Origin: Heliopora coerulea
Taxonomy: Eukaryota > Cnidaria > Anthozoa > Scleralcyonacea > Helioporidae
Assembly: GCA_030142905.1 (NCBI GenBank)
Contig: JASJOG010000002.1
Location: forward strand, 552,501 to 616,500
DNA length: 64,000 nucleotides
Reading direction: 5' to 3'
Part shown: positions 730 through 58,800 of the stretch, one piece after another
How the letters are laid out: every line of letters starts with the position of its first letter
Position numbering within the stretch: the stretch's first letter is position 1
The notes under the pieces: generated by a model
The model's database searches: none
Seen by the model: the letters and a program-made list of their open reading frames with translations, nothing else
What the model was told of the DNA's origin: nothing
Made by a program: the position numbers and the translations under genes

Positions 730-3700
730 CTAGTTTTCTAGCACTCTTCTTAAAATTCTTGCTGTTCCAAGAAGTGACGTTTTCTGGATATCCTCAACGT
801 TCACTGCTATTCCAATCCTCTCAATCCATTGTTCAAACTTTATGCTTGCACAGCCCAAGGCTCCAACGACAACTGGTTTTACTTCTACCTTTCTCATTGA
901 CCACAGGTTCTTAATGTCTCGTTTCAATGCTTGATACTTTTCTATCTTTTCTGTTTCTTTCTCGCCAATTCTGTTGTCTCCTGGTATGGCTACATCAACT
1001 ATTGCACATTTCTTTTCTGCTTTGTCTACTACTACTATATCTGGCTTTCGGTATTCTATCTGGTGGTCGCATTGGATCATAAAATCCCAAAGAACTTTTA
1101 CTTTATCCGACTCTACTACTCCCTGGGGGTTATGTTCGTACCACTTGCTCGCTCTTTCTAGATCGTGTTTTCCACATATTTTCTAATGTATAATTCTTGC
1201 TACATTATCATGTCGACTTTTGTACTCTCGTTGTGCAAGTTTTGTGCATTCGCTAACTCTGGTAAGCGAATGCACCTTCTCCTTTTTCTGAATTCTCCTT
1301 TTTCCCCACAAAGTCTACATAGCGGTGAGTCTACAGATTTATCAATTTGGAACTTGATATAGTTAGTTCTTATCGCCTGTTCTTGAGCTGCGCATATTAG
1401 GGCTTCCGTTTCCGGTTTCAAATCACTCTTTTGTAGCCACCTCCATATCTTTTCCTTGTCCATGTCTTCACTTTTCTCCCTGTTGAACTGTCCATACGTT
1501 CTCTTACCTATCCATCTTTGTTCTCTTTCTTCGACTTCTCTCCTCTTATACTGTTGCTTTGGCATACTATCTTCAGTCGTGATAACTTCTCTTTCTCTTA
1601 CTTCAACCAATAAAGGTTCTACTGCATTTTTGATGTACCATCCAACACCGTTCTCCTCTGATCTAATACTTGACTCACAGCTTATCAATCTTCTACTACC
1701 TTTTTTTCTTGGCAAATATAACCTGTCTACATCACTCTTAGGGTGAAAAGCTCCGTACATGGTCAATATTTTTCTTGTTTTTCTATCCAAGCTTTTTATT
1801 TCTTGATCGTTCCAGGTAACGATTCCTGCACCATACCTAAGTAATGCGACTGCCCACGTGTTCACCGCTTGCATTTTGTTTCTGCCGTTTAATTTCGACT
1901 TCATGACCAACCTCAAGCTCGGCACATACTCCTTTTTGAACTTTGATCTCATTTCCTCTTCCATTAATCTATCTATTTCCAAGATACCCAGGTATTTATA
2001 TCCCTTTTGTTCAATCACTTTCATTACTTCTCCGTTCGGCAATACCACTCCGTCATTCTCGGCAATCTTTCTCCTCTTTAGAATTAATACCCCGCACTTC
2101 TTAATTCCAAATTCCATGCCGATATCCTTACTGAATAGATGGACCGTCTTCACAAGGGAGTCGATCTGTGCCTTGCTCTTACCATATAATTTGAGGTCAT
2201 CCATATACAGCAAATGATTGATCTTTTTCTTTCGGCCCTTGAATTCATATCCTGCCTTCACTTTCCTTAAAATAAGGCTAAGGGGTGCCACACAAAGCAC
2301 GAACAACAGCGGTGACAATTTTGTTTTCCATTTCGTCATGCTATTACATACAAACTGTTCTACGTTTTTGGCAATTCCAAACATTTTCAAACACTCCTCA
2401 ATCCATGAATGTGGTACCATGTCGTACGCTTTTTGATAATCTACCCATGCCATTGCTAGGTTAGTGTGTCTTTTTATGCAGTCCTTAAGCACCAACTTAT
2501 CAATGAGCAACTGGTCTTTAGTTCCTCTGAATTGTCTTTTGCAGCCTTTCTGTTCGTTCGGTAGAACTTTGTTGGAATCTAGAAAATCGTACATACTTTC
2601 TGCAATAATACCAGTCACAAGTTTCCACATCACTGGAAGACACGATATAGGTCTAAAATTGTCAACAGCGTTGCCTTTTGCGGGGTCTTTTACACAAAGC
2701 ACTGTTCTGCCACATGTCATCCATTCCGGAAGTTTTTCACCTTCATTTAATATCCCCTCCAATTGCTCTGCTATTCTCTGATGGCAAGCTGTTAATTTTT
2801 TAAACCAAAACCCCTGCACCCCATCTGGCCCGGGCGCTTTCCAATTAGGCATCTTTCTGCACTGCATCTCAACCTTAGTTTGGTTAATATGTAGGTCTTC
2901 TTGTCTAGTATGGTCTATATGCTCTTTTAATTCATGTAACCATTCTGCCCTGTCATTATGTTTCTTTTTGTTGTCCCACATACTTCCCCAAATTTCCTAC
3001 TTTCTTCAATGTCAGGTACAATCTTCTCCTGTCTGCTAGCTCCGTTCAATTCTTGATAAACCATCTTCTGATCCACATTGAACATTCTATTCTGCCGGTA
3101 TTGCTTTATTCTTTGTTCGTATCTATTTACCTTTGCTTTCTTTGCAATGACCCTTTGCTTTAGCTCTTCGAGTACAATGGTCACACCTTTACTTTTGATC
3201 TTATATCTTCTCTCCAGCATTTGATACTTCTCTTCTTTTCTTAGTTCTCCTCTTTTTCTTCGTTCTAATACTCCAATGTCTTTTCTTAATCTTTTGATGT
3301 CTCTTTCGATCCTTCTCTTCCACCATGGTTCTCCATTCCTCTTTCCTCTTTTTTCATTCCCAATCCTTAATCTTTCTGCCACATATAAGCCGACAGCTTT
3401 TAGCAATCTGTTTATTTCTGTGATATTGCTTGTTTTGATGTACTTCATTACCTTATTTGCCCTTTTTGTTTCTTTTAAAACTTTCATCCTATCTACTTTC
3501 TTTAAATTGCAACTTCTATCATCTTGCTCGTTCATCAGTTCTATAATTCTGTGAACTATGTTTTTCTCCTCTTCTGTGGCTTGTTCAATCTCATCAGTTA
3601 CACGTCTCTCTGCTCCGACGTTCTGCTCCTCCTCTGTATCATCTCTATCTATTCTTATATGCTCTTCTTCAATGTCTGGCTCCCCACTCAATTCTTGTTC

Positions 3701-5482: not shown

Positions 5483-8344
5483 ATGAGTACCGCTAAGAGA
5501 AATGTCGGGGAAAAAGTTCCTCAAGTAATGTTTTCTCAGAAACTGAAAGAGAAGATGAACAGTAAGGGCTCGAAGATCCCCATTAAAACCATGGAAATAG
5601 TTAGGACGACCAATGAATACAAGAAAGCAAAGGAGATGACGTTGGAGGATTTTGAAATCAAAGCTAAAGACGTAGCCGAAAACCAAACCTGTCCCCTCTT
5701 TCGAAAGCATAGCCCTAAGAACTTCATGATTGCCAGATTCGATTCAAAATGTCCTCAGAAGATAACAGCAATGATTTTGGAAAATGGTGTCGACGTTCGT
5801 TACGAGGGAGAGGAGGACGTTGAGCGCTATGTCTTTTTCGGCCACAGTGCCAGTCAACTACGACAGCGCGTGTGCTATCTATATAGCATTAAACTGGAAC
5901 CTGCAGAAAATATCATCAACGAATTCGGAGATTTCAGTCGGATAAAAACTGTGGCAAAACGTGCTGCCAGGATTGGATTACTGTTCTCGACAGCAGGTGA
6001 GACAGTCAGTTTACGTGCGGAAGATATACGTAGGATAGACGACGTTGAGAGGAATAGTCACACATTCACGGACGGTTGTGGATACATTTCTCCTGCTGTA
6101 GCCGAGGAAGTAACGGTACTTCTTGGTATTGCTGACAAGTACAGACACCAGAAGTACAAGTATCCTTCAGTATTCCAAGTACGTTTAATGGGTTGTAAAG
6201 GCGTGTTGGCGGTCAAGCCATCCTTAGAAAAAGGCGTGGAAATACGAAAGTCAATGGAAAAGTTCTCTTGGTCATTACCCGAACCATTTCCTCTTGGCGT
6301 TGTCGACAAGGGGTACTCTAAACCCTACGAAGTTGGGTCTTTGAACAAGCAGTTCATATGGCTTTTGTCAGCTCTGGGAATAACTGATGACGTATTTCTT
6401 GAAAAACAACAAAAGTATTTCAAAGACATGGCTTCCTTGACGCATGACAAGAAAACTGCATTTACGTATCTTTGTGCCTTTGGCGAGATTTCCATCGCAG
6501 AGCGCCTCTTGGAAGCTGATAATTTTGACAGCGACATGATAGCGAAGGTAAAGTGTATTCAGCAGCGAGCCTACGGTGTAAATAGCGAGAAGTCGCCAGC
6601 GGAGAAGCTAAAGATCCCAGTAGAACAGTCTAGAAATGTTTATGGCATCAGTGATCCTACCGAGGAGATGTTACAATACGGAACTTGTTTTTTCCAGCCA
6701 ACCATTCGTGGGCACACAAAGCCAGTTCTTGGTAAAGTAGTTGTGGCGAAAAACCCATGTTATAGTCCCGGCGATATCCGAATCTTGAAATGCGTAGACG
6801 TTCCATCCTGTCATCACCTTGTCGACTGTATCGTTTTTCCGACGACTGGGAAAAGGCCACATCCAGATGAAATTGCCGGTAGTGATTTAGACGGCGACAA
6901 GTTTTTCGTCTGCTGGGACTCAGATTTGATTCCCTATGAGGAGAAGGACCCCAGTTCATATCCGCCTGCCAAAATTCTTCCAATGAATCAAATCCGACAA
7001 AAAGATATGATTGAATACTTTGCTAGATATTCTAACGCTACAGTGAGTAAAATAGACTCACTGTTCGCTTCGTGGGCTGATAGGAAGGGAGTCCTATCCA
7101 CTGAGTGTAAAATCTTGTCGGCGTTGTTTTCACGCGCGATTGATTCAGCCAAGACTGGAGAAAGAGTTAACATTCCAAACCATCTAAATCTACCAACGGA
7201 TGCAGCACCTCAAAAGGGCGAAGAAACGTTTGTTTGGCACAAAATGGCGTCACGAGCTCGTTTGTTCCTGGAGGACAGAGTAAAGGACTTTAAAGTGAAC
7301 AACCTGATCCAGCTGACCGACGATACCGTAACAAGTATCCTTCGCAACCAAGAAATCAATGTTAGCGAATACCAATTGTTCAGGTTTCTTTACAAGTGGG
7401 CTGAACAGGAGCGAGCCGCAGAAAAACGTGTAGACGACATCGCTGAAAAATACATAGATTTTACGGAATTCACATCAGAACAACTACGACTTGCACAAAT
7501 TGATTGTCCAGGGTTAAAGCCACTAGTACTCTTTAACCCTTTTGTTCGTTCAGAAATCCTGTCAATCGATGATCAACAGATTCTAGTTTCTGAACTTGAA
7601 AATTATCCGCGGTTCTCAATGGTGTACAGAGCTGATGCAGAAAGCCTTTCTTGGGGTGTTCTGAACAACGTTCTGACATCGATTTTGGTGAAAATTTTGG
7701 TTTTCAAGTTCCTCCTCGGGAGCATGGAATGGGTATTTGCATTAAGCCTTTCCCAGAAACTCGCATCCAGGGAAACCTTAGAGTTTAACGAGGCTGAAGA
7801 TCCGCTTCCGTGCGCATTCCTTTTCATCCATCAAGACAATCCAGTTAGCGAAAGACTGCAGCTGAAAGAAGGTTATTCCCTCTCATTAGATGACAAGCGT
7901 TTGCAAATTTACCAGACGACAAAAAACAGAACCTTCATAAGCTTTAACATTAACGACGCGAATGATCTGTCCATTGTGAGTATTGACTTGAACCGCTTCA
8001 ACCCAAGATTAGCAAACAAATACGGCGTCCGCTTACGGAAAGAAGCTTTTATTTCTCTTGAAGTGTACTGCCTAGACCCGATGGGCGATCCTATCCCCAG
8101 AATCCACCCAACAGACCCGCCAACAGTCAAGCAAGTGCAAAGCAGTAGACAAGATGCTGCCAACAACCTATTTACTGCCACGAAGGAAGATTTCCCTTCC
8201 TTAGGACAGGAACATGGCGGAATATTTATGGAGAGCGAACGAGAGTTATCCAAGCTATACGACCTTTATGAAAGTGGAAAATTAAAAACAAGAGATTTTC
8301 AGGAAATGAAAGAGCTATTGGTGAAAATGAAAGAATATCCTCAG
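5483..8344 (+). CDS. Exon 1 of the fusion gene: cellular RNA-dependent RNA polymerase domain
   Basis: One uninterrupted coding exon of 954 codons. The RdRP core starts near residue 110 (RYVFFGHSASQLRQR) and contains DGCGYISP at about 196, a GCKGVLAVKP block and the catalytic loop SDLDGD with D468, D470 and D472 all present, matching the DxDGD signature of eukaryotic RdRPs. No frameshift or stop, so it looks functional. The open frame runs on past 8344 into low-complexity hydrophobic residues, but CAG/GTAAGC at 8344/8345 is a strong donor, so the tail to 8560 is intron. The start at 5483 is the first ATG. Many family members have a longer N-terminus, so an upstream exon is possible. Confidence 0.85.
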
Positions 8345-11300
8345 GTAAGCAATGAAACAGCCCCTACCCGAAGCGGAGAAAAAAATGGGCGAGGTTCTGG
8401 TCTGTTACTTATTTCCATCGTTTGTTTGTTCGTTTGTTTGCTTGAGTGTGTTCGTTTTTTGTTTGGTTCACCTGTTTATCTGTTTGACTGTTTGATTGTT
8501 TTTGTTCCAATTAGATTGAATCATTGTGTTGGTTTGTGGAGTGTGTGGCTCAGCTGGTAGATCCCCATTGGGTCGGTTTTCAATCCATTTGTTCGACCAA
8601 TATATTTAATGGTTATCAAGCAAATGATTATTTTAAAACGTGTTTCAAAATGAAGCCTTCGCGAATGATGGCATAGTTTCGACTGAAGTTTAATATGCCA
8701 TGCGGAGAGTTTCCACATTTTGAAAGCGAAGAATGAAAGGTGTTCAGCTGTACATGTGTTTACTTTAATTATCTCATTAAGAAACCATCGCTTTAGCCAA
8801 TTCTCAGACTAATGGACCTAGGATCGTTCTAATACCGAAGTACAAAATATGCTTTTCGCTCTGGCTTGCGAAGTGAATGCTTTTGAACACAGAGAATGAA
8901 ATAGTTTTCCGACTACTCTGTTGTAATCCAGCTCAAAGCTCTTACGATGCCTCTAATAGTGTAACCCCCATTATCATTATCATGGAACTAAGCTGTAATT
9001 GCGATTGTCGCAAGCTTTCATTTGGACAAATCAATCGCTTGAAAGTCACCGACCGTTCTTCGAACAGCTTATCGACTTATTTCTTCTTTGTAAGAGTTGC
9101 GATCATGCTCGTTACGTTCGACATCAGACACACAAAGCTGTGATGTGCATACGTAGTATAGCGTCGCTCGACCATGTTCACTTTCCCACGCCGCGCGAAC
9201 CTCGTCGCTGTGATACATAATTAACACCAATAACATCAGAAAAGTAATATAAACAAAATATGACATTTGTGGAACAAATAATGATCCACCGTTTCCACTG
9301 CTCTCAGGACCCCTGGTCTATATTCTACTCCTGCGGCTACCATGGAGAATATCCCTGGTGGTAACATGTGTGGGGTAACATGAACTGTGAAACTGTGGGA
9401 TACATGAAGCTTCACCAGACTAAACTAAAGGGGATTCCTTAATACATCTTCTAGGTCGGCCCGTCCTCACATTTAAACACAGCATAAACGTATGCGATAA
9501 ATTAGTTCTGTCGAATTAAAAGGTTTAATTATGATGCTCATATCACCTAGAATTTCAATTTCTGCATTCTTGGAATTGCACTATAATATAGTTTGTGATG
9601 TTGATCGTAAATCTGTGTGTAAAGTTAATATAAAATCATATTCAATTAATAACATTCTATGTTTTGTCATTTATTTCTTAGGAAAGACATGAATGGGCAT
9701 GTAAGCTCGAGTCATTGGTTGACAAGAGCGCGATTCCTCTTGGAAATCCGGACGACTATTTGAGACTCCTGATATATCTCTTGGAAGGATTAAGGAAATG
9801 CAGTCTGAGTACTTTAATCGGGAACAAGGTCAACGTTACTCTACTTGACAGGATGCGTAGAGTCCTAGAGAACATGGAACAGAAAGAGGTCCGTTTTAAT
9901 GTGGAGAACGTTTTTGAACTGTTTGACACACTGCTGTTTATGCACGACCGGCATACTTCAGTGTTCGTGGTTCAATTACTTAAACAAGGTAATGACGTTA
10001 TTTCACGACAGAACAAGTTTTGTTCCGATTTCAGTTTCAGCCCGGGCTGAAATATTTCATGTAACCAGGGCTCTTTTCAACCCAGTCTGCCGGGCTGAAA
10101 TTTTCCCATGTAATCAGCCTCTAAAATAGCAGAGTATTTATCCTTAATCGTGAAGTGCTAAAATCTGTGAACAGTCCAACGTGTGCATGCGCTTAGGATT
10201 ACCGGTTGAACTATTGCTAAGCCAAAACAAAAAAAGCACCCAAAAGCCCCAAAACATCCCAGGACTCATTTAAAAGGTGCATGGTTAGATTATGATCCTG
10301 GTTAAAAATGCTAAGGCTAGAATTAGGGTTAGATTAAGATTAACGTAAGGATAAGGATTTGGGTAAAGGTTAAAGTGCTTTTACTAATAGGTGAGATTGT
10401 TTTATCTCGCAGTTTTAATTTTGGTGCATGAAATATTCTCAGGACAGCGTCGTAGCAAATGGAGGGCTAAGAGACTTGTCCCTGGGCATCAAAATAAAGC
10501 GTCAAATTGAGATATCCAGGGTATTTTATATATGGATATACATGGAAATTTTAAAATATATATATACTCTGGCGGTCAAAAAGAACTGCTCAGGCTCCAT
10601 TTCTTGGGCAATGAAGGGTTACAACAATGTTTTTTGCTCACTCCTATGGCAAAACAGTCAATTTCAAAACTAATTTTAACCACAAGTTTTGATAGAGCTC
10701 CAGTCATTTTAAGGAATTTTTTTATGGGGAAGTCAAGATGTATTCCTGGTTCCCCAGGGGATTACCTTTAATTGTTAGTAAAACAAGAATTTCAAGCAAC
10801 ATGCAAAATCATGGATCTAAGGCCAAGGATCAGCCTTGAAAATGGAGGGAAAGTTACTCACAACAGGAGACTGCTGATCAAGTGGGCTGTAGCTAAAGTG
10901 TCAGCAATATTTTGAAGAAGCCGAGACTTACTCGAAGTGTTGAAGATTCGAAGATCCCTGGACGAAAAAAGGAAAACTACGAAGAGAGAGGACGGAATCA
11001 TGGTGAGAAAAGCATGTCCAATCGCTCTAAGACTGCACCGGAAAATTAAGCAGAGATGCAGATTGAACATGGTGAGAGTGTCTCTACTTCCACTACCCGA
11101 CGGAAACTGAAAGAGGCTGGTCCCAACGGCCGCAAACCAAGTTACTATCTGCACCACAAGTGAGCAGTTCTTTTTGACCACCAGTGTATAAAAAGGTAGA
11201 TGAACGATCTTCAAGCTCGATACTCAGAAAATGATTTCTGAGCCCCAGACCGGGACCGAACCCGCAACCTTCTGCTGACCGGTTAGACGCTCTAACCATT

Positions 11301-14271
11301 GAGCTACCGAGACTCAGATGGTGAGCTAAGGTGTAAATTCTGAGTATCGAGCTTGAAGATCGTTCATCTACCTCAATATATCCAAGCTCTCACGTTTTCT
11401 CAAACATCAAACTACCTCAGTGTATAAAAACATATCGCAAAGGCCATCACAGTTTCGTCCTCCCGAATATTTTTATACCGTCTTCGGCATCATTCTCGTT
11501 ATACTTCAAGTTAGTAACAGTGAAGTTGCTTAACGGGTGGCTGCACAAATTAAAATTTGACACCGAGTGCCGATATTGATTATATAAGCAGTTGCCACGA
11601 TCGTCATCCTGGTGTATGCAATTGTAAAAAATACGGATTGATTAAAATATATAACTTTATTAACAAAAACAAGGGGTCATGACAACCGCGTGACACCGTT
11701 AAGAATGACATGACGACTATCGAATCGCCAGTTTATCTACGCTAGCAGCTGCACTACAACTTGAGCACTCGTTATACTCAAATGCTTAAAACTCTTTTAC
11801 AACACAATGACCGCTGGACAGTCTACCCGGCAAGATTTCTGCTCATGATTCGCTCAAGCTCTTCCCCGAGGGTCTTGTGAGTTTTATGCTTACATCAAAA
11901 TGACAGTCGCAAGGCACAAAGTTGTACCTCTAACGGTGCCTTTAGGTTAAGTATTTGGATTAGTATTTGGGTTGGTGTCATTCAGCTCTAGTGGGAAGTG
12001 GCCAAGGTCTTAGAGGTCACTTTAGCCCGATGGGTTAACAGACCTAGAATGGACAACGTGTGAACATGGTCAGAAAGAGTTGAAAAAAGAATTGGGCTGT
12101 CCTTGCGGATAGTCCTTCGTTTATGGACAATCATTAGTAAAAATAGTCGTACAAAATTATAATATGGTTTTCTATGCCTAGGTCGTTTTCCGATTGCAAA
12201 AGACGAGTTTTTGCCACATGAGAATGCGGTAGCGTATTTCTTCCACTGGACAAGTCTTGTATATATGGAAATTCTTGAGGAAATCAGGGAACAAGAACAG
12301 CTGGAACTCAAATACACAGAGACTCAGTCAATAATCCAAGGTGTTGCCACGGGAAAGAGCGAAGCCGATTCCTCAGAATGCACTATCTTTGTCGAAAAAG
12401 GTGAATCCAGCTTTTTGCCAGGAGACTTCCTCGCGCTTAGTCCAACAAACTCGCGTTTTGTGTTCAGTGAACGCAAATACATTGCAGAAGTCAAATCAAT
12501 TTCAGGAATGCTGATTTCAATCGACATTGTCTGGCCAAACGAGGAATCCCTGATACAGCACGTTATACAACAGCACCGCTGGTATATCACGCCTTTTCCA
12601 AACCTCGTATCGTGCAAGAGAATGCTGGATTCATTGCGAAAATTGTGCACGGCAAAGTCGCTAAACGATGTTGGGGTGTTCTCCAAACTCTTAGACAAAT
12701 GGAAACTGAAGGTAGAGGATCGCCGAGAAATACGTGATAGTGCACAAACGTTCGACGAGCCAGCCCAGGTGCCATGTGATCTTAACAATAGTCAAAGAAC
12801 AGCTGTGCAACAGGCTTCCAACAACTTCCTGACGCTCATCCAAGGCCCTCCAGGAACGGGGAAGAGCAAGACCAGCGCTTACATAATTCAGACCTTTCTT
12901 GCACAAGATTCGGAAGGGAAAATCCTAGCAGTCGCAGAAACAAACGAGGGAGTGGACAACCTGCTAGAAAAGATCATCGACGTTGGAAGGTCAATTCCCG
13001 ACCACGAATTACTTCGTCTGGGTAGTTCTACGTGGACGGTTCGAGAAAATTTAAGAAAGTATACGTTGGAGACGAGGTACGCCGAACGTTCTGAAGGAAA
13101 ACGAGTAAAAGAGAATAAAATGGACTCTAAGGTTGTCAAAGCAATATTAAAACAAGCAAAAGTCGTTTGCACGACGTGCATTAGTGCTGGGTCGAAGATT
13201 CTCGAAAAAACTCAGTTTCCGAGACTGCTTGTTGATGAAGCGTCCCAAGCAACTGAGCCAGCCATTCTAGTTCCTATTTGCAACGAATGCAAAGTCCTGG
13301 TGCTTGTGGGAGATGACAAGCAACTACCGCCCACGGTCAAGTGCCAAACGGCAAAAGAACTTTCCGAGACTACGTTCAATCGACTGCGCCAGGCAGGCGA
13401 GCCAGTCTACCTCTTGGACACTCAGTATCGCATGCATCCGGCAATCGCAGCCTTTCCGGCAAACCAGTTTTATGATGGAAAGCTTAAAGATGGCGTGAAG
13501 GAAAAACAACGCCCAGCTCCGGCAGGATTTTGCTGGCCAAACTCCAAGCGTCCTATTGCTTTTGTGGAGATGGGAAACGATGCCAGGGAGACGGGTGGAC
13601 GATCCAAAAGAAACACGAAAGAAGTGGCAGTGGCTAAACGCATTGTAGAAGAGTTACTTCAAGATGGTAATTTACGACCTGAAGAGGTCGGTGTTGTGAC
13701 GCCCTACAAAGCACAGGTTAAATTGCTTACGGAGAAGTTACAAGGACGCTTTCCCAAAGTTTCCGTCAGGACTGTGGATGGATTTCAGGGTCAAGAACGA
13801 GAACTAATCGTGTTTTCTGCAGTGCGTTGTAATGCTGGTGGTCACCTTGGGTTTCTCGACGATGACCAAAGAATGAATGTACTTTTAACAAGGGCTCGAA
13901 GGGGGCTTATTATCATTGGTAGTGGAGATACCTTGAAAAGCGACAATAGCTCAAGTTGGAGCAAGTGGGTTAACTGGGTTGAACAAGAAAAGTTGACCGT
14001 TGATTCAGGTAATATATGTAAGCAAATGGTTTGTAGAATTGAAGGCATGGCCACGCTAAGCTTAATTGTCGTAAATAGAGCATATCAATATACACATTGG
14101 TTGTTCTTACTTTATCTTTCAGCCACGTTCCTGCCTGTTACGAACGCATCTGTCGAGCACGGTGGACAAAGAAAAGGGCAAATCCAGGAAAGAGGAAAAA
14201 GCCATGGACGAGGAAGAGGACAAAAGCATGGAAGAGGAAGAGGCCAAGGACGAAGAGGTGGACGACAGTGA
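5483..14271 (+). CDS. RNA-dependent RNA polymerase fused to SF1 (UPF1/MOV10-like) helicase
   Basis: Predicted four-exon gene, about 1,714 aa. Coding exons: 5483-8344 (RdRP, 954 codons), 9682-9988 (102 codons, helical linker), 12182-14008 (helicase, 608 codons) and 14123-14271 (Gly/Arg-rich tail and TGA stop). All three introns are GT-AG and the phases agree: 0, 1 and 1. The RdRP belongs to the cellular RNAi family that copies RNA into dsRNA; plant RDR6 acts with the SDE3 (MOV10) helicase. A covalent RdRP plus SDE3-like helicase would place both steps in one enzyme. The first in-frame ATG of the helicase exon lies inside conserved helicase sequence, which argues against a separate helicase gene starting there. 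The alternative is two genes with an unseen helicase first exon in the 2.2-kb intron. An ATTAAA poly(A)-like signal is at 14407-14412. Confidence 0.65.
8345..9681. other. RdRP-helicase intron 1
   Basis: No gene seen. It begins with GTTT/GTTC-rich simple sequence (8410-8500). Around 8540-8580 there is a weak tRNA-like A-box (TGGCTCAGCTGG), too degenerate to call a tRNA. Confidence 0.6.
9682..9988 (+). CDS. Exon 2 of the fusion gene: helical linker
   Basis: Bounded by an acceptor (TTTCTTAG) and the donor G/GTAATG. It reads in phase from the RdRP exon and encodes 102 codons of mostly helical, Leu-rich sequence (for example LLIYLLEGLRKC and VFELFDTLLFMHD) with no domain I recognise. Its last base supplies the first base of the Gly codon completed by exon 3. 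Confidence 0.7.
10032..10120. repeat. Dispersed repeat, CAGCCCGGGCTGA family, copy 1
   Basis: Contains the palindrome CAGCCCGGGCTGA (10038-10050), then TTTCATGTAA and TTTTCCCATGTAAT. The same order of motifs recurs at 31325-31432 and, more diverged, at 15600-15730. Confidence 0.7.
10567..11186. mobile_element. MITE with Tc1/mariner-like terminal inverted repeats
   Basis: The left end (CTCTGGCGGTCAAAAAGAAC) and the reverse complement of the right end (CACTGGTGGTCAAAAAGAAC) match at 18 of 20 positions, and both are flanked by TATA. CAC/CAGTGG-type ends in a TA target are typical of Tc1/mariner. The 620-bp interior has short open frames but no recognisable transposase. Confidence 0.7.
11195..11417 (-). 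mobile_element. tRNA-like SINE-type insertion with internal 36-bp inverted repeat
   Basis: Flanked by a perfect 13-bp duplication cagtgtataaaaa (11182-11194 and 11418-11430). It lies at the right edge of the Tc1-like MITE. Positions 11194-11229 and 11338-11373 are perfect inverted copies. Between them, on the minus strand, is a tRNA-like sequence (11238-11317) with A-box TAGCTCAATGG and B-box GGTTCGGTCCC. The long duplication suggests retroposition, while the inverted arms suggest a foldback. The cloverleaf is too imperfect for a functional tRNA. Confidence 0.65.
12182..14008 (+). CDS. Exon 3 of the fusion gene: SF1 helicase, UPF1/MOV10-like
   Basis: All SF1B helicase motifs are present in order: Walker A GPPGTGKS (fusion residues 1278-1285), an N-terminal TNEGVDNLL motif, Walker B VDEASQ (from 1408), VGDDKQLPP (motif III), DTQYRMHP, VVTPYKAQ, TVDGFQGQE and NVLLTRAR. 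This set is typical of UPF1, MOV10/SDE3 and ZNFX1-type RNA helicases, with ATP-driven 5'-3' unwinding expected. No lesion is seen. The upstream part of the exon (FHWTSLVYMEILEE) is also conserved-looking, so the nearest ATG would give a truncated protein. The donor is CAG/GTAATA. Confidence 0.85.
14123..14271 (+). CDS. Exon 4 of the fusion gene: Gly/Arg-rich tail
   Basis: After acceptor ATCTTTCAG the frame gives a tail with HGRGRGQKHGRGRGQ and a further RR/GG segment ending at TGA 14269-14271. RGG-like tails bind RNA and are common on RNA helicases. The intron before it is only 114 nt, a multiple of three, with no in-frame stop, so intron retention would insert 38 residues without changing the tail. 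Confidence 0.6.
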
Positions 14272-46800: not shown

Positions 46801-49800
46801 ATCACTTTAACGAATGTAAAAACTAAACAAGGAGACCATTTTTGTTGTCAAATATTCTTTGAAAATGCTATTTGGAATGTTTGTATGCCTGTAAGCATGC
46901 AACGGAGTTTGTGTTTGCCATCGGAATAAGTGCATTAAAATCAGATTTCAATCTCTCATTAAAATTACATGGAGTATAAATACAGTGAACGCCCTCTTAA
47001 CGAACACGTCTTTCAAGACGGAGATCACGTTCGGTTCCGGCCGTTCATCCGTAATTTTACTGTTACCAAATTCTCTCTTAGACAGACATCTTTGTAAAAT
47101 GGACAACGGACCCTTTTCGGGTGGAAGAAGGTTCAGGGCGGACACGTAATGAGTGTTAAATAGACTTGGATAGTGAAATATGAAAATTGAAGCCTCTCGC
47201 TCGAAACGTCAGGAACTTTTGTTTTGTGGTTATGAATTCATGGACTGACTCGTATTTGATGAAAAACATGATTTGGAATCGGAGGAAAGGTTTCTTCATT
47301 CATTGTTATTGAAACGAAGGCAGAAGAGAAACAACAAAACCAGATGCATCTACGTTCATGATATAAAGTAGACCGCCGCTTGGTTCTGGCAAATTTCATA
47401 ATTTTGTGAGAGGATGAACTTGTTACAATAAACGTTAAATTCTACCAGTGTATTAGATTGTCACTGCATCAATTCCACGACATTTTAATTCTTATGAAAA
47501 TTGACATTGGGAAAGAATTCACGTACTTAAGGCGCCCTATTAGCGCGCCAGAATCACTGGTGCTGATTGACTGAGTCCTAACCATTTTAATCCTGATGGC
47601 CGCTGTGAGATTACTTCACTAGCAATGGGAACCGACCGAAAGTTACCGCACTTTTTGGAGGCCTTAAAATCAGATTTAGCGGGGTTTTGGAGGACCTGGG
47701 AAATTTTTGACAACTGGGGAAATCGTAGTCGAGTGCGAATTTTCAGCTACCAATTAAAAAATGCTATTTATGGAGAACCATGAAGTGGAACCTTATGGTG
47801 AATAAAAAAAATAGAAGTGTTAAAAACGGGAGTGGTAGTTGAAATTCGTTTCGTACTACCCCTTTGTTCCTTCTTATGATGAATATATCTCAGTTGAATA
47901 AGTTGCAGTTTCAATGATTTTTGTTGAACTTTCATGCAATCCATTGCTTTAGCGAGTGATATTTTTCCATAGCGCTTGGTAACTTTGACCCTTTTCCCAC
48001 CATTTTGAAACTGGATATTAAGTTCTTTATTCTTTTCATCGTTTTTGATTGCGATCATTTTTTCTATTCTATTTAACAGATCTTCCTCTTTTTCTATTTT
48101 GAAATTGTATTTGATTTCTGGTTTTTCTTTGATCTCTTCATTTCCTCGTTTATTGAGTACTTTATTACCATGGTTTTGACGTAATCGTTTATGTGTTTCT
48201 TTTCTGTCTTTTCTAATTTATGTTTATTTTCGCACGAGCAATCTACAACTAGTGATATTTTAGGATTTTTGTCTTTATTTTTGTATACTATAGATTTGGT
48301 GTCAGATAAATGCTCTTTTAGTCTGATTTCTATGGTCTTTATCGTAGATCCAATGTAAATGGTTCCGTCATCAAATTCTATTTTATAAATCTTACCTTTT
48401 TGATATTCTGTGTGCCCTATTGAAACTACTTCATGTTTGTTCTTAGAATTGTACGTATATTTTGCATTCAAGTTTTCTGCATGTATGTATTCGAATTTTG
48501 TTGTCCTACTTAATACTGTACATAATTGTTTCTTGTTCATGGCCTCTGTATCAAAAATGTTATAGTGTTGGTCTATCTCTGCTCCCTGGTATTTGTATAC
48601 TGTCATACAGAATGCTAGATTAAACTTCTTTGTAAATTCGTCCAAAGAGAACTTTTGGTCATTTTCCTTTATACTTACTCCATTTATACTTATATCTTTG
48701 ATAGTGAACTGCTGAGAGTTAAACTTACCACGGTCCTTCATGTTATCAATACATATCACAGGAGTGCCCGCACAGACTTTATATTCTTCTTTAGATCCAT
48801 TGTAGGAGAAGTTAAATTTTAGGTGGTTCTTACCTTCGCAAAATGCATCAGAACACATTTTATTGATCTCCTTTCTAGTGCTATTGAAGTAGCATATATT
48901 GACAAATGTGTCCGTATAGTTGGTCAATTTTTAGTTCAAGCGACCGGTCTGTAGGAAGTTAGTCAGCATATCAAAAGTTTTCTTGTCATATCTAGCACTC
49001 TCTTCAATATATTTAAGTTCAATAGTTTTCGGACACATCTCCAATATAGCAGGACTCTTTGTATAGTCATACTTTAATCTACTACTGCCTTCAACAGGGT
49101 CACATTGGTTTGCATCTCCATAAAGATTTACTTTCAGATTATTTGCAACATAACAGTAATAAATCAAAGTGATTCATCTATTTGGAACCATGGAGAATTC
49201 GTCTATAAATACATCTTTATTGGCTAATACTTTGAGGTTTTCTGCATCTGATATATATTCATTGAAGTAACTATCAAATGTATGCACTTTATTTTTCAAA
49301 CTATCGTCAACTCTACTTCTGATGTTATCCACAGCCTTGTTGGTGAAGCTGAATATAATAGGATTGTTACTTTCTTTGACATCATTTATCAGTTTTATAG
49401 TTTTGCCACATCCAGCACCTCCTGTTATTAAGCTTCCTTTTCCAGGTTCTATTATATAGTCATCTAAGTCAATATTCTTTCTATAAGATTTGTCAATCAT
49501 AGAAGGGGTCTCCCCTACCTTTTGATAAACTTTACCGATCATATCAGTAGTGAATTTCTGTTGTTTGTCTTTTATTAGGTATTCTATACATGGATTTTCA
49601 CGGTAGACAGCATCAGTATTGTATCCATCAGTATAGTATGCTTATCACAAGCTTCTTCTATAATTTCCAAAAGCTTCATAATGGATCCCGAAATCACGTG
49701 TCTATTAATTGAGCAGTTTTCAACCATCCTTCTTTTAATATCTATTTTGCGGATTAGAAAGAAATCATCTTCCTTATGGATACTCACTTTTTCGTTATTT

Positions 49801-52800
49801 TCAAGAGCCTCAGTCCAAACAGCGCAAGCAGTGTCATAACGAGTGGAAGTAAAACCTTTGCTACTTTCCGATTACTAATGCAGCGTCATAAGCTTCGTTC
49901 ATCAATTCTTTCTTGTTTACTGTTGTCATTTGGTATATAATAGATTATATTTCATTTTCTTTTATTACATTGTTTTCAATGAAGTATTTTTTAATGAATA
50001 TTTTCTTGCACGATATAAATAATATCTTTCTTCTATTATTCTTATCAATAATGATTTATCGATACAATGTTTTGGAACATGATTGAGAAAACCTTTTACG
50101 ATATCTATGTTAGGATTGTCGGGTAATATTTTTAGAAGTAAAGATTCATTGATTAATTCAGGATTACAGTAATTCAATAATTCATAATTACAAAAAAGAT
50201 CATGTTTCATTGATGAAAATACATTCTCAATCATTGAAACAGTTTGATCTTTATGTTTGATATATTTTATTTTTTCAGGATTGTCTTTGAATGAATCTAT
50301 GTATTTTTCATATTTATCAAGATTTTCTTCTATATTGAGGTTTTTTAATATTCTCTCTTTTGATTTTAAATCATCTACTGTTTCTTTCAATGGTTTCATT
50401 TCTTTCATTAAATTATTTTTTTCACTCATTAAAATTTCATTTTTTTTCTTTTTTTCAATACATTTGGATTTTAATATTTGATATTCTTATGTTAGTATTT
50501 CTATATCATTGAAATCATTAAATTCTGCTCTACAGTATGGACAAGTTTCACTTTGTTTTAACCATTTATCAATACAATCAGAGTGGAATAAGTGATTACA
50601 GTTTAATTGTGATATAGGTTTAACTTCATTAGTCATACAAATGTTGCATTCAAAATTCATTTTATCTATATACTATATACAGATAAAAACTTTTTAAACA
50701 ATTTTTCAACATATTCTGTGGAAATACTTAACATGTCTAAATAATGTATTCTTGGATATGAATTTCCGTCTACAGTATTTACATCTGATGCGAATATCAT
50801 GCCTATAGTCGTTTAATTCCTTTATTATTAGGTCATAATCGTTGGAGACAATACATTTATACCCATTTTCTTCATATCTGTCTATTAGTTCTTTCTGTTG
50901 GTCTGTAATAATACCACTACACTGAGGGGTTTTGAACTCTATACATAGACCATTATAATTCTTATGAAGATTTTGAATAATCAAATCTGGTTGACCTTTC
51001 ATATAACCCTTTTTGAACGATTTGATGCGTTTGTCTTTGGTGTCTTGATTCTCTCCAAGTCCAGCTGTCATTAATATAGCTGGATAAAATCGCCTAATGA
51101 ATTGAACCACTTTAGTATGCAGGTCATACTCATCTTCTATTTTAAAAGTGAGTGTGTTAGGATTGTTGAACATCCTGTAGTATCCATACTTTCTGATGGA
51201 TGGAAGTGCGTCTTTTGTAACCCATCTTTTGAACTTTTTCGCAGTTTCTAATCTTGAGCGTAATATTAACGAATAAAGTCCACTTTCATTTATATAAATA
51301 AACCATCTGACCTGATCCGGCGTTTCGCCGGTTGAGGTATTATTGGATTTTAAGGATCTTTTATCCTCTGTATCGACGACATGTTTTCTTATAGCATCGT
51401 CTGTATCCTTATAACCCAATAATGTGGCAACCTCTTTACCCTTGAACCAAATATTCTGCTTATTATCGTAATAAGCATCAAGGGATATATTTAGATCTTT
51501 GTTACCAAATTTCTTGACTGTTAATGACATATTATACACTGTTATATAATATGACTTTTCAAAGCTACCTATTTTGGTCGCCTTTAATTCTCATCCCTTA
51601 AAGATGGTAAAATAGCTCTGTATAACCATCTCTTCAACTGTTTTTTGTGTTCATAGTCAGACAGAAATATCAATCTATATAATCCAGGTTCATTGACCAT
51701 TGTGATAACAGTATCTAACAATTTTCCATTAGAGAACTGTATTTTCTTGTCGACTGTCATTTTTTCATCATCAGGGATATTGTATTTGATGACAGGTGTT
51801 CTATTTTTATACTTCAATGCTGTTGCTATTTCAAACGCTCTGAACCATAAATCACCATTATGTTTATAAACATTTAAAGTTATACCGAGAAACTCGTTCG
51901 TCACAGTTTTTAAATGTTCCATATATACAGTATTATTTTATATTTTATGGACCTAAAATGATGTTTTAATCAAATGTATCAAGATTATTATTCTTTGTTT
52001 TTATTTTTACACTTCTTTCAATTTCGACGTTTTTTGGCTCTGGTTTTGTACCCTCCTCTTTGATAGTTTCTGGTCTTTTGGTCTCTCTTTCATAATCTTT
52101 TCTTGTATAATAGAGTGATCCAATAGCGACTGCTGCTCCTAAGAATCCGAATAAAAATCCATAATTGATTTTAAATCCAGAACTATCATTCTGACTCTAT
52201 TTTATCTCGCATTTTTCTCTCTTTTGCAGCCTTAGAAATGGCAGCCAAACGCCTACCAGCCTCGACCCTGTTAGGGTCTTTTTCCTTTTTTGTTGCTGTT
52301 ATTTTAGGTGCAGTCGTCGTCTCTTCAATCGGTGCTGTCGTTTCTTGACTCATCTATATAGTAATGTATATTTTATTTACAGAATATCTTTGAGACATCT
52401 ATGAGATCGTCTGCAAGTCAACCACCATCTCTTTTATCACTTGGTTGATCCTCCAAATGTATTCTATTTATATCCTTTAGAACACTGTCTATCTCTATTG
52501 TCGTATTTTTAAAACATCGTACAAATTCTCTGATTCTTTTGAAAATATTCCTTAATTTAGGATTCATTATATATTACATTATATATTATTTCTTGTTTTT
52601 CCTACTGTATAAATATATCAATGAACCACCAAATATTAAATATAAATGATCACCAATGAAAATTAAACCTTTACCAGAGGCTTCTTCTACATCAGTTCAC
52701 GGTATGACATCTCTTTTTTCTGCAGGAGTTAATTTTTCTGCTTTCTTTTGTTTATGTTTAGCATCGCGTGCAGCATCTGATCCACTGCGCTTTAGACCAA

Positions 52801-55800
52801 GAGATAAACCAGTAACTAATGTAATTATTGTTAATCCAATTGCGGTTGCTATTCCTGACCTTTTTAATATTTTATTTAGTTCTATTTTTGGTACCGTATA
52901 TCGTCAACTATTTGATTTAATTCGTTTGGATCAGCTATATCTCCGTCTATGGACGGACATCTTCTCTCCTCCTTCCATTCTTCTTATCAACCTCCTCACA
53001 GTGAAATACAAATGGAAGCGCATAAGTGATGTTATAATTGGATGTACATCTTTTGATGGGGTTAGATGCTCTATTGACACTCCACAGCAATAAGATGCAC
53101 AATAAACTGCAAAACACACTTGATAATAATTTTCATTATCATCCCAATCAGCTTTATTATAATCAGTGGTTATATTTATTTTTGGAAGCTTTGATGGAAA
53201 ATACTCACTACTGTTGATGTAGATTTTGAAGTCATTAATGTCGTAATCCAATATATAATGATCTGGGTATTTATCAGTCATATGATATCCTTCAGCATTT
53301 TGAACATTTGATTCAGGAATTTTTTGTATTGAACTGTTAGATTGCCAGATTTTTTGAAATTTATTATTTTCTTCTATCACAACACTCTTTGTTTTTATTA
53401 TTGTTGGGAAATTTGAGTGTCTAACATTAGAGTAGAGATGTTTTGTCATAGTTTTGTCATTAAGGAATGTGCTACTGGTGATGTCTGCGCTTAATATATC
53501 TGATTTTTTGAAGAATATATTGGTGGAGTCTAAGTACCATCCTGATTGAGATACACTTCAAAGTCAAACTTACTTAAGTCAGCGTTCGGATAGTTTCTAA
53601 GAAAGTCGTTTTTCATTCTTATCTTCATTTGTTTGACAGTTTTCATAGCCTTGTCATAGTTCTTTCCATAGTATTTTCTGGTAAGATCTTCCATGTTATA
53701 ATACATAATATATTATATATGAAGAAACTAACAGTGTTTATTGAAGACGATAAGAAGGAACTTGATCTTGATGAGTCTTTGGTCATAAACCACGATTCAT
53801 TCATTTATGTTAAAACAGTGTTCATATTTTGGGATTACAATAATGTTTACTCTGGAGAAAATGACGAAATCGTATATGGTTCTACAACAGTTAAATTTGA
53901 ACCAGGATATTGGACCTTTGACTTATTAAAAAAGAAATTTGAATCACTTAATGGAAATTTATCAATCACCGCAAACTTGCACCACAATTCTTGCACAATA
54001 ACATCTGATGCCAAACTACAGTTAAAAAGATTTGGAGAACTTATTGGTTTTGATAATAACATCACCATTAATTCTGGGGCTACAAAGACTAGTAAAACAA
54101 TCGACATAAACAGCAAATTAAGATATATCAAAATCAACTGTGATGCGGTGGACCGTATGAGTAATATTGATAATAATGGCAAACGAAGTTCAACGATTTC
54201 CACTCTTCCAATTACAACAAAAGATTCATTAAAAGGATGTGTTTATCACTACACAGACATTGAGAGTAAAATACCAATAAATAATGGTGTTTATAACAAA
54301 TTATGCTTTGATGTGGTGACAAACACTAACAAAACACATTTCGGGTCAACATTAATGGAACTATATATAATGTAACTTATATGGATAAAGACATCGAGTC
54401 AGAACAAGGATTAAGAGATATTTACTATAACCCTAAAACTGGTTAACAATCTGCAGAAAGATTATATCAAAAAACATTAGAAGATAGTTTAAATGTCAGT
54501 AGAGAGCAGGTAAAAGACTGGTTAAGATCGCAAGACACATATACCAGATATAAACAAATTGTCAGAAAACATAAATTTAGACAAACTAAAGTTAACTATC
54601 TTGGCGAGCAGATACAGATGGATCTCGTCGACATGGGTTCATATAAAAACAAAAATAAAGGTTATTACTGGATACTAACATCTATTGAAATTCTTAGCAG
54701 GTATTCATTTGCTATCCCTGTTTACAGAAAAGATACTAATAATATGACAAAAGCAGTCACAGAACTATTGAGACAATTTAAAGAGAGATTTGGTGATTAC
54801 CCTAAATTAGCTCATTTTGACGATGGAAAGGAGTTTTACCATGTTGGTGTTAAAACATTAGAAAAACATGACATTAAGTATTTCTCCACAAAATCTGATA
54901 AAAACGCAGCTGTTGTAGAAAGATTTAACAGAACACTTAAAACCGCTATGTGGAAATACTTCTATAGTAAAGGAACTTATAAGTGGATTGATGTGTTGGA
55001 CCAATTGGTGTATAATTACAATAATACCAAACATTATACTATTTTAATGAAGCCAAAAGATGTTAATAAAAAGAATGATGACGAGGTTTGGACCACTTTA
55101 TATATGGTCATCTCTATGCTGAGTCACCATTACCTAAATTTAAGGTAGGAGACACTGTCCGAATATCAAAATATAAAAGCACTTTTACTAAAGGTTATGA
55201 AGCCAATTTCACTGAAGAACTGTTCAAAGTGGTCAAGGTTATACGTGGTGACCCAACTGTTTATGAAATAGAGGATCTAGAAGGTGAACCAATTATTGGG
55301 AAATTCTACGAAGAGGAGTTGTCAGGTGTTGATAAAAAGGACGATGTCCATAAAGTTGAAAAAATACTAAAAAGAAAAAAGGGAAAAGGCAAAAAGCTGA
55401 TTCTTGTCAAATGGTCAACTTATGATAGTAAACATAATAGTTGGATTCCTGAGAGTGATATACAAAATATATAGTAATATATACATATCATGGCTGAACG
55501 AGGATTTGATGATTTCGAAATGCAAGACTTGGGTCAAAAGTACCCAGAATACGACAATATGAATTATGGGAATTTAGATTATGAATATAATCATATACAA
55601 GATCTATTAATAGATGACCAAAAAATCATAAATGATGAAGAAAAGAGAGAATATACAAAAAGGTCTGAATATTTACTCAAACTAATTCGTCAAAAGGAAC
55701 AATAAACATCATTTATAGAAAGTGATGATGGTAAAACAGTAACTATCAATAAAAAAGGGAGCGACACTCAAGTCAAAGCCCCTAGGGTAAAATTTGAAAA

Positions 55801-58800
55801 CCCAGAAAACTATGGTGATGTAGAAAAGCAAAATTTCGATCTAGCATTTAAAGAGCAAGCCGACATAGAGTCTAGACTAAAAAGACTAAGTGACTTCAAT
55901 AGAGAACTAGCGGAGAATCAAATAAAAAGGACTCAAATTATAAATAAAAAAATCATAAAATTATATAAAAAATCTTTAGGTGAAGACAAAATATCGAAAG
56001 AGATCGTTGATAGGTCATTTGCTAACGATAATGGTAGTATAATTTTCAAAGAAAAATGTAAAAACGGAATTTTATTGGAACCAAAACTAACTATAAAAGG
56101 CAAAGACAGGAATTTCAGCAGAAATAAAAAAAATAAAGAAGCCATAAGACATTTTAAAGAATTAGTACATAAAACACCAGACGCCGAGAATAAACAACAA
56201 ACAACTAGAAACGACATTGAAGAAGACTATGACGACTACCCATTAGTCAAAATAAATACAAGGTACACTGATGTAGACGGCCTGACCAATAATGAAAACA
56301 GGGAGTTAGAAGGTGTACTAAACCCCGAAAATAGTATAGACCCACAATCAAAGATTGGAGACAACGGCGCCCTACAAATTTAGGCTGACCATTTCCAAGA
56401 GGCTATAAATAAAACAATAGAACAATGAGACCAAACAGAGAATCCAGAGGAGTTCATTGAGTTGGAGGAAAGAATTGTCGGTCTAAGACAAGCGAGAGAC
56501 AAAACTTTAGAACAAAGACAACTAGAAGAAACCAGAGAACAACAAGAAGAGGACATAAGTAGACTACAAAAGTTCAAAGAGTGGGCTAAGGAAAACTTAG
56601 TCGGTCTAAGCGCTTTGGCAATCTCTGTCGCTGGTAATATAACAACAATCATCGTGGGCGCAAGAAAAGCATTAATAAAAGGTGCACAGGGTACTGGAAA
56701 ATTTCCAAAAGCTGTCTATAACCTGGGAAAGAAACTTGGAGCATTATTAGCACCAATATTAAATGTCATCGCTCAAGCATTGTCATGGGGTGCTTCTCCA
56801 AAATCGTTTACAAATCAGGCTTGCAGGGGAAACTGTTTACGACAATAATGGTGAGAGTTTATAGTGTCTACAAGGACCTGTATAAAACCAATTCACAGAG
56901 AGACAACATGATTGAATATGGTATCGGATCCCAAAATCTGAGAAAGCTAATTAGCAAAGACGACTCTGGTGCCACATCAGGTGATGCCACAAAAGTCTCT
57001 GAAAAGTTAATGTTTGACATTTTTGGTACAAAGCAGATGGTCTGTTTAGACAAGATAATCAGTGACCACGGTTTGTATGCACAATTTCAAATGAACAATA
57101 ATTTTAGATATATCATTACATTGCCCAAATCAAGTGAAATATTAGTTGCTCAAAGTGGTCAAAGACTTGGAAATTATAGTCTTGAAAACCTTGAATTAGA
57201 ATACGAGACAATCGAAAACCAAACTATTGCAGATGAGGTGGCATCAATGTATGCGGTTGGTCGTTCTTTGTCATTTGAACACGTTACTCTTATGACGAAT
57301 GTTATATGGGTCGCCGCGTCCACTCTCATTAATGAAAACATTAACATACCTCGCAAATCCATGAAAGCTGTCGTTATGCTTTTTACGAAGACATCGAGGA
57401 CAGATAGTGAAGAATTCCTTTATCCAAATATTACAGAGGTTAAAATAACAATTGAAGGTGTTCCAAACCAGGTATACTCACAAGGAATCACAAAGTCACG
57501 CTTCTATGACGTAGCTATGCGACTATTTGGATCAAAAGATGAAAAGGATCAGTTCGTGACACCTCAAAAGTTTTTACAAAGACAAGTTCGCTTTGGTCAT
57601 CGATTTAAGATCTACCGAAGAGATCAACAAAACAGGTCATGGCAAAAAGATAGTAAACACTCAGAATGGCATTCTATTGGAAATTAAAAAGACAGCACAC
57701 ACTGGTAACGTTAATTGTAAAATATTTGTTGTATCTGATGGTCTTGTCAATTTCATGAACAATGATTTGCGGAGCATTCAGAATTAAGTTATATTGTATT
57801 ATATAGATAGAGTCACCTTTCAACATGATTATATGTGGTATGACAAATTGTGGGAAAACTTATTATTTGCTAAATATGATTGAGAAACATTATAAAAAGC
57901 ACTTTGATTATATCATTTTAATTTGTCCAGCATTCAGGTGGAATAAAACATACCAAGATTGGAAATACATCAATGATCCTGATTTTAGTGCTGTGGAGTG
58001 TGATCAAGATAATGTAGATAAAATTGTCCAAATTGTCCAAGTGGTTTACAAAGGAACCAATAGTTCAATAATCCTGGATGACTGTGCAAGTAGTCAGGAT
58101 GTCAAAAATAGAACCAGTGAGTTGGTCAAATTGGCATTTTCTGCTAGACATTATGGTCTTTCAACAATTGTTATCACTCAGCAATTAACCGGTATAGGCA
58201 AACCTTATATAGAAAACATTTCTAAGGCTGTCATATTTCACACTCCAAATAAAAATACAACTAAAACAATTTTTGATGAATTTTTAGATGTCAGCAGAGA
58301 AGAAAAAACTTCACTTAAGAACAAACTTAAAAATACTAAATACGCAACATTGGAGACCAATTTACGCTATCCATTTGACTATAAAATAAATACACTGCAA
58401 AAATAAAATATATGTTATCATATACAGAATGCCTAGACGCAAGAATACAAAACCTGAAACCATTGATGAGTTATTCGAAGTTACAACCGCAGAAAATATT
58501 GTAGATGAGGAAATCAATAATTTATCCTCTGAAAAACCAGAAAACGTTGAACCACAAAACGATAACAATGATTTAGAAAAAAAGAGAGATGAACTTCTGA
58601 AATTAGCAGAAGATGATGATTTGGATAAATCTGTTGCTTACATAAAGAAGGCTAGTCAAAAGGTCATCAATAAACTATACACTGAATATGAACGTAAACG
58701 AATGCAAAAAGCTAACGAGTTCCTAACTGATCTATTAATAAGTAGATTTGTCAATACTTTAGGTCTTGATGCTATTGAGTCCACTGAGGAATCAACAAAG

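Follow-up and report, generated by a model that had tools for sequence, protein, structure and literature searches.

The question raised by this locus is whether an animal gene can encode an RNA-dependent RNA polymerase (RdRP) and an RNA helicase in one polypeptide. The DNA scanned, a stretch of 64,000 nucleotides from the cnidarian Heliopora coerulea (hereafter the window; C112:552501-616500, contig JASJOG010000002.1), lies within a 430-Mb genome and carries the gene under study on its + strand. The preliminary description of this DNA had proposed that an RdRP exon and a UPF1/MOV10-like helicase exon form one fused gene, encoding a single animal enzyme for small interfering RNA (siRNA) amplification or antiviral defence. 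The fusion of RdRP and helicase in one gene is strongly supported by the exon structure and by the relatives of the predicted protein. The reading that we favour, with moderate confidence, is that one gene joins an RdRP, a TLDc-like module, a linker, a UPF1-like superfamily 1B (SF1B) helicase and an RG-rich tail, and that the enzyme likely unwinds and copies RNA.

Gene structure and the joining of RdRP and helicase

The window gene consists of four exons. Exon 1 (5483..8344) is an open frame of 954 codons (residues 1-954) that ends in phase 0 at the donor CAG/GTAAGC. It is followed by intron 1 (8345..9681, 1337 bases), the linker exon 2 (9682..9988, residues 955-1057), intron 2 (9989..12181, 2193 bases), exon 3 (12182..14008) for the helicase with its stalk, 1B-like barrel and RecA domains, intron 3 (14009..14122, 114 bases, in frame) and exon 4 (14123..14271) with the RG-rich tail and the stop codon. 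All donors and acceptors are GT..AG, the splice phases fit, as previously described for the first three exons, and once joined the exons read without interruption up to the stop at 14269-14271. An RGG-like tail had been placed on the helicase exon itself; the superfamily 1 (SF1) helicase stands, but the tail lies on exon 4, behind the 114-base intron. In the alignment, the relatives P0003, P0004 and P0008 (proteins collected here are cited by such numbers) continue without an insert at intron 3, where read-through would add 38 residues without counterpart in relatives. The RG-rich tail was also found in P0003, P0004, P0008, P0029 and P0035.

The spliced protein aligns end to end, across three junctions, with LOC114538372 of Dendronephthya (P0003, 1773 amino acids) at 60% identity, and end to end also with P0004 and P0008. 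Residues 955-1200 match P0003 (E 1e-78) and P0004 (4e-80). The longest contigs listed for P0004 and P0008 are 5453 and 5860 bases; as the window gene has introns of 1337 and 2193 bases, contigs of such small size are most simply transcripts. The end of exon 1 was inspected by eye, at the protein level only, in 27 of the 46 relatives that have the RdRP only. In 24 of the 27, homology extends to the end of exon 1 and is followed by a valine codon and then a stop (one codon early in P0015); P0027 runs into the next exon, and P0007 and P0037 show neither pattern. Since a valine codon fits a phase-0 GT donor, these fragments point to the same splice. In the helicase exon the first methionine in frame comes only at codon 35 (12265), a place that the structure model assigns to the predicted stalk helix (residues 22-51 of the model), so that the exon has no usable start, in agreement with what had been noted before. 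The proposed fusion is thus borne out by the end-to-end relatives, the linker and the comparison of exon ends.

Domains of the predicted protein

On exon 1, the Pfam RdRP family PF05183 matched residues 114-571 (E 7.5e-112). The RdRP catalytic region spans 5513..7282 (residues 11-600), and the DLDGD catalytic loop, earlier called intact, was found at 6884..6898 (residues 468-472). With PF05183 above cut-off, a DxDGD loop and an RDR-type fold (structure model at pLDDT 82.6, pTM 0.81), the exon 1 product has the features of a eukaryotic cell-encoded RdRP. The description of a complete RdRP exon holds for the polymerase and falls short for the exon, which is predicted to hold a TLDc-like module as well. 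The catalytic region is followed by a helical stretch (7319..7534, residues 613-684), weakly and perhaps BACK-like, and by a domain (7535..8080, residues 685-866) whose predicted fold is a TLDc fold across its whole length. Matches to plant RDR2 (7w82, 7roz) and QDE-1 stop by model residue 646, ahead of the TLDc-like part; RDR2 differs in a long extra N-terminal part, its match starting at RDR2 residue 276, and is not known to carry a fused helicase. The TLDc-like region is, by a profile count, lacking in other RdRPs. It is also held by two helicase-only proteins, P0200 and P0253, beyond the 118 fused proteins described below.

Exon 3 matched AAA_12 (1.4e-58) and AAA_11 (1.1e-44). A motif search placed Walker A (GPPGTGKS) at 12844..12867 and the motifs DEASQ, GDDKQLPP, QYRMH, DGFQGQE and LLTRARRG within 13234..13905 of the same strand; DLDGD and the seven motif strings sought are intact in the window gene. 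The nearest solved helicase by sequence is human UPF1 with 250 bits, ahead of senataxin (179) and ZNFX1 (110); it is also tied first by fold, and the SF1B core, stalk and 1B domain of the UPF1 type are present in the predicted fold. When the translations of the three exons were searched at E 0.01, the CH domain PF09416, which binds UPF2, gave no match, and on this ground the helicase half is UPF1-like rather than UPF1 itself. The Pfam model of the UPF1 1B domain, PF18141, was likewise unmatched in the window protein, although the predicted fold shows a barrel there. Of the earlier label UPF1/MOV10-like, the first half is upheld and kinship with MOV10 is not, MOV10 being absent from the helicase comparison rows listed (best 120 of 4004; best 50 of 1671).

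Relatives and origin of the fused architecture

Relatives were pooled from an RdRP search (best 120 of 300), a helicase search (best 120 of 4004) and a fungal search (45 of 45). Among the 269 proteins collected, 118 have the RdRP followed by the helicase, none has the reverse order, 46 have the RdRP only and 105 the helicase only; as collection was by similarity to the window protein and to P0132, these counts describe co-occurrence and not prevalence or a census. In the best 120 of 300 from the RdRP-part search, the helicase stands behind the RdRP in 89 and the RdRP is alone in 31. Over the RdRP, the nearest named relative is that of the octocoral Dendronephthya gigantea (64%). The suggested search for RdRP and AAA_11/AAA_12 in one protein was positive for, among others, the cnidarians Dendronephthya, Stylophora, Actinostola and Hydractinia and for Branchiostoma, Anneissia, Antedon, Patella, Mya, Mercenaria, Dreissena and Brachionus. 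Both domains are also joined in fungi, among them Gigaspora, Diversispora, Funneliformis, Trichoderma, Podospora, Venturia, Aspergillus undulatus, Pisolithus, Coprinopsis, Pleurotus and Rhizoctonia. A fusion limited to the Heliopora genome or to animals is ruled out by these relatives, and of the single animal enzyme proposed earlier the single protein is retained and the restriction to animals is not. The name of one fused relative, P0040, marks it as a EukProt frame derived from a transcript. DLDGD is kept in 118/118 fused relatives and Walker A, as GxxGxGK[TS], in 114/118. The window protein, its joined transcript being predicted, has the same layout of RdRP first and SF1 helicase (AAA_11/AAA_12) last, and, with these parts recurring in an unchanged order across animals and fungi, the enzyme is likely ancient.

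Trees of 49 rows each were built for the RdRP core (the window and 33 of the 118 fused proteins) and for the helicase (the window and 29 of 118, with four proteins omitted: P0040 and P0041, which are long, and P0036 and P0039, which are incomplete). In the RdRP-core tree all 34 fused rows, 22 on the animal side including the window and some unnamed rows and 12 fungal, lie on one side of a branch; a deep, well supported split (99/94) sets the fused rows and two long chytrid DEAD rows apart from the other 13. In the helicase tree the 30 fused rows lie opposite UPF1 and the other unfused helicases with support 83/86, short of the star that marks a well supported branch. Both trees contain two animal subgroups, one of the window, Dendronephthya and Branchiostoma and one of clams, Hydractinia and Actinostola. 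The Branchiostoma proteins share the subgroup of the window (P0029-P0031 in a quicker, larger helicase tree of 93 rows; P0029 in both 49-row trees), and in the 93-row tree P0040 and P0041, whose branches are very long, are placed apart from the fused rows. RdRP and helicase distances correlate in 29 fused proteins (r 0.87; 0/2000 permutations as high) and among the 17 animal rows (0.78), which is what common descent predicts. These comparisons are most simply read as one fusion that predates the separation of animals and fungi and was passed on by common descent, though this is not proven.

Two observations concern the composition of the relatives. An extra P-loop domain, PF13521 AAA_28, occurs in P0076, P0087, P0117 and several clam-type fused proteins of the second animal subgroup (E down to 2.4e-15 in 3/33 scanned) and is listed for many relatives in the RdRP-part search. 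The chytrid proteins P0263 and P0265 begin with the RdRP, carry a DEAD helicase after it and have no TLDc-like region; in the RdRP tree their long branches fall on the fused side.

Single cases of an RdRP-helicase fusion have been noticed before, in the accounts of Fgrdrp5 (PMC11237814) and BL02069 (PMC6396948). Fgrdrp5 of Fusarium graminearum resembles the window gene in having an RdRP followed by C-terminal helicase domains (DEXDc 1277-1478, PF13087 1475-1677) and is placed as a separate branch among fungal RdRPs; it is the only protein of the fused layout found with a knockout, and it contributes to Dicer-dependent exonic siRNAs (PMC11237814). It differs in being fungal and is called a DEAD-like helicase plus an AAA domain, the passages on it mentioning neither a TLDc-like module nor animal kinship (PMC11237814). 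The likeness of Fgrdrp5 rests on its published description, whereas Trichoderma and other fungal relatives were compared by sequence. BL02069 of Branchiostoma lanceolatum is an animal RdRP drawn with an extra AAA_12 in a figure legend, and the account of it neither discusses the fusion nor mentions a TLDc-like module (PMC6396948). Proteins of Dictyostelium, oomycetes, Hydra and Nematostella also unite a helicase with a cellular RdRP; in these it is an N-terminal superfamily 2 DEAD/Helicase_C helicase, as against the C-terminal SF1 helicase of the window (PMC4791657, PMC3661229). No TLDc-like region was found in the four DEAD-bearing RdRPs collected (P0260, P0263, P0265, P0269). The window gene was rejected as a DEAD-RdRP of the Dictyostelium/Nematostella type, its helicase being C-terminal and SF1 and its start being shared by P0003 and P0004. 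An RdRP works with an SF1 helicase in the fission yeast complex RDRC (Rdp1-Hrr1-Cid12), and plant RDR6 is paired with SDE3. RDRC differs from the window protein in having its parts in separate proteins, and the likeness is one of description; Hrr1 is mentioned in PMC11237814. In the literature searched, with most subscription papers outside its scope, no listed paper described a family shared by animals and fungi or an RdRP with a TLDc-like module; TLDc and RNA-dependent RNA polymerase occurred together only in a firefly genome paper among the best 20 of 76 papers.

Proposed function and other loci

Coupled activity, strand geometry, pathway and docking role are proposed as follows. The RG-rich tail and the helicase would load onto RNA. 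UPF1-type helicases use ATP and move 5'->3'. The polymerase would read its template 3'->5', and a helicase on the same strand would oppose it; because the two directions clash on one strand, the helicase most likely tracks the non-template or product strand, in the direction of the polymerase. In this way it could unwind double-stranded or structured RNA before this reaches the active site, or strip away the product and free the template for another round of copying. The long double-stranded RNA (dsRNA) or antisense product may feed Dicer in fungi or another dsRNA pathway in animals. The TLDc-like module may serve for docking and so determine the position of the enzyme within the cell. Purified TLDc domains of Ncoa7, Oxr1 and Tldc2, though not of Tbc1d24 or Tldc1, bind V-ATPase, and conserved glycines of the NCOA7 domain are required for this binding (PMC8608904); docking is for this reason at most a lead. 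Since DLDGD is retained throughout the fused relatives while some helicase motifs are lost, copying of RNA is suggested as the core function.

Several points weigh against the favoured reading. The joined transcript is predicted from splice sites and relatives, and we infer the polymerase and helicase activities from sequence. Pfam TLD (PF07534) had no match above cut-off, or indeed up to E 10, in the window region; its matches in relatives are below cut-off (1/15, E 0.011; 3/33, best 0.022), it is not among the 25 listed of 70 families in a further Pfam comparison, and a PDB profile search of the TLDc-like region gave no match up to E 10. Exon 2 and its copy in a broken locus downstream share 54 codons, with 9 silent changes and 26 replacements; the copy shows no sign of constraint. 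The motif.YRM is absent in 20/118 fused relatives and TRA in 13/118, some of these proteins being incomplete, and both Patella proteins are without DEA, GD..QL,.YRM, QG.E and TRA. Long relatives with the RdRP and the TLDc-like region have no helicase match (P0005, 1730 amino acids; P0087, P0117, P0238, P0243) and are either incomplete models or real losses. A single origin hangs on the 83/86 of the helicase tree, and in the 93-row tree fused and UPF1 rows form one group and are not separated. Amplification of siRNAs is absent, as far as the accounts go, from Branchiostoma, which has a fused RdRP (PMC6396948), and from Nematostella (PMC12768352).

These last reports bear on the pathway proposed earlier. 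A role in siRNA amplification or antiviral defence was not substantiated, the exonic siRNAs of Fgrdrp5 (PMC11237814) standing against none in lancelets (PMC6396948) or Nematostella (PMC12768352), and from this divergence animals may use the dsRNA otherwise. It is quite possible, if short of probable, that the fused protein is made and that its product serves something other than siRNA amplification, either as dsRNA sensed by RIG-I-like receptors or in RNA surveillance. The missing secondary siRNAs of both animals, the increase of Nematostella RdRP1-3, which may or may not be of the fused kind, after poly(I:C) (PMC8476169) and the surveillance (UPF1) type of the helicase agree with this explanation; the effect of Fgrdrp5 on Dicer-dependent siRNAs does not (PMC11237814). 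Unlikely is a helicase half that acts as a regulator or RNA clamp without motor function and recruits the polymerase to UPF1-type ribonucleoproteins without unwinding: the degraded motifs of Patella and some other relatives beside a universally kept DLDGD would fit it, while the intact motifs of the window gene and the near-constant Walker A argue against it. Two tandem neighbour genes without a common transcript are very improbable: introns of 1337 and 2193 bases do lie between the parts and the Heliopora transcript is a prediction, but fused relatives occur throughout animals and fungi, the linker and exon end are conserved and no start codon precedes the helicase stalk, and both chance and tandem genes were ruled out by the end-to-end relatives and the conserved exon end.

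A bolder form of the favoured reading, which we regard as doubtful, would be a one-polypeptide cellular RNA replicase, born once before the animal-fungus split and docked by its TLDc-like module on a cell structure such as the endolysosomal V-ATPase. Its UPF1-type motor would open the duplex ahead, so that the enzyme could copy structured or double-stranded RNA alone and repeatedly, like viral polymerase-helicase complexes, and would give corals, clams, lancelets and fungi a so far hidden branch of RNA-based antiviral immunity. Animal RdRPs present a puzzle in that their active sites persist, yet no siRNA amplification is described in lancelets or Nematostella (PMC6396948, PMC12768352). The fused family gives this puzzle a testable form, as the role of the enzyme may lie in copying RNA that is structured or duplex and not in making secondary siRNAs, and the TLDc-like module may indicate where in the cell it works. 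Relatives of the fused protein are present in Hydractinia, lancelet and Trichoderma, all of which can be edited.

The 19 genome matches to PF05183 belong to the window gene, a broken copy and three tandem copies on C41 (504-564 kb). The broken partial copy, about 107 kb downstream, consists of RdRP pieces (C112:665138-666392) and a linker exon (C112:670780-671046, 71% identical); no helicase exon for it was found in C112:650001-700000. The C41 copies are minus-strand frames of three tandem genes (L010:6064-7569, L010:3027-4940, L014:4093-8235), one of which has DEAD, Helicase_C and the beginning of the RdRP within a single 1381-codon frame. All three are matched by the helicase and RdRP parts of the DEAD-RdRP protein P0269; the TLDc-like and helicase parts of the window protein gave no match at 1e-4 to the fetched C41 stretches. 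The C41 genes are of the DEAD-RdRP kind reported for Hydra and Nematostella (PMC4791657). As the window gene carries a C-terminal SF1 helicase, Heliopora combines helicase and RdRP in two opposite arrangements, judged by gene sequence.

A C41 copy other than that of the 1381-codon frame matches the RIG-I C-terminal regulatory domain PF11648 ahead of DEAD (E 4.6e-7, above cut-off), and a match to PF25359 (metazoan RdRP PH-like) is below cut-off (E 7.9e-4). A gene uniting a RIG-I-like sensor with a cellular RdRP would merit separate study. P0269 (2599 amino acids) and P0260 (2366) combine a DEAD helicase and an RdRP with a central domain that resembles poly(A) polymerase (PF22600; E 7.8e-4 in P0269 and 7e-6 in P0260, neither reaching the cut-off), a set like the three parts of fission yeast RDRC in one chain. 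Elsewhere in the window, a tRNA match lies within intron 2 (11241-11313, minus strand; 31.3 against a threshold of 29 bits) and is perhaps the head of a short interspersed element. Upstream of the gene, a reverse transcriptase frame (1200-2996, minus strand; RVT_1 E 1.8e-21) probably belongs to a long interspersed element. Positions 48097-58950 hold a Maverick/Polinton-like element with a Bro-N protein and an SF1 helicase piece, both on the minus strand, a Pox_A32-type packaging ATPase, and an integrase whose rve and chromo domains lie in adjacent frames.
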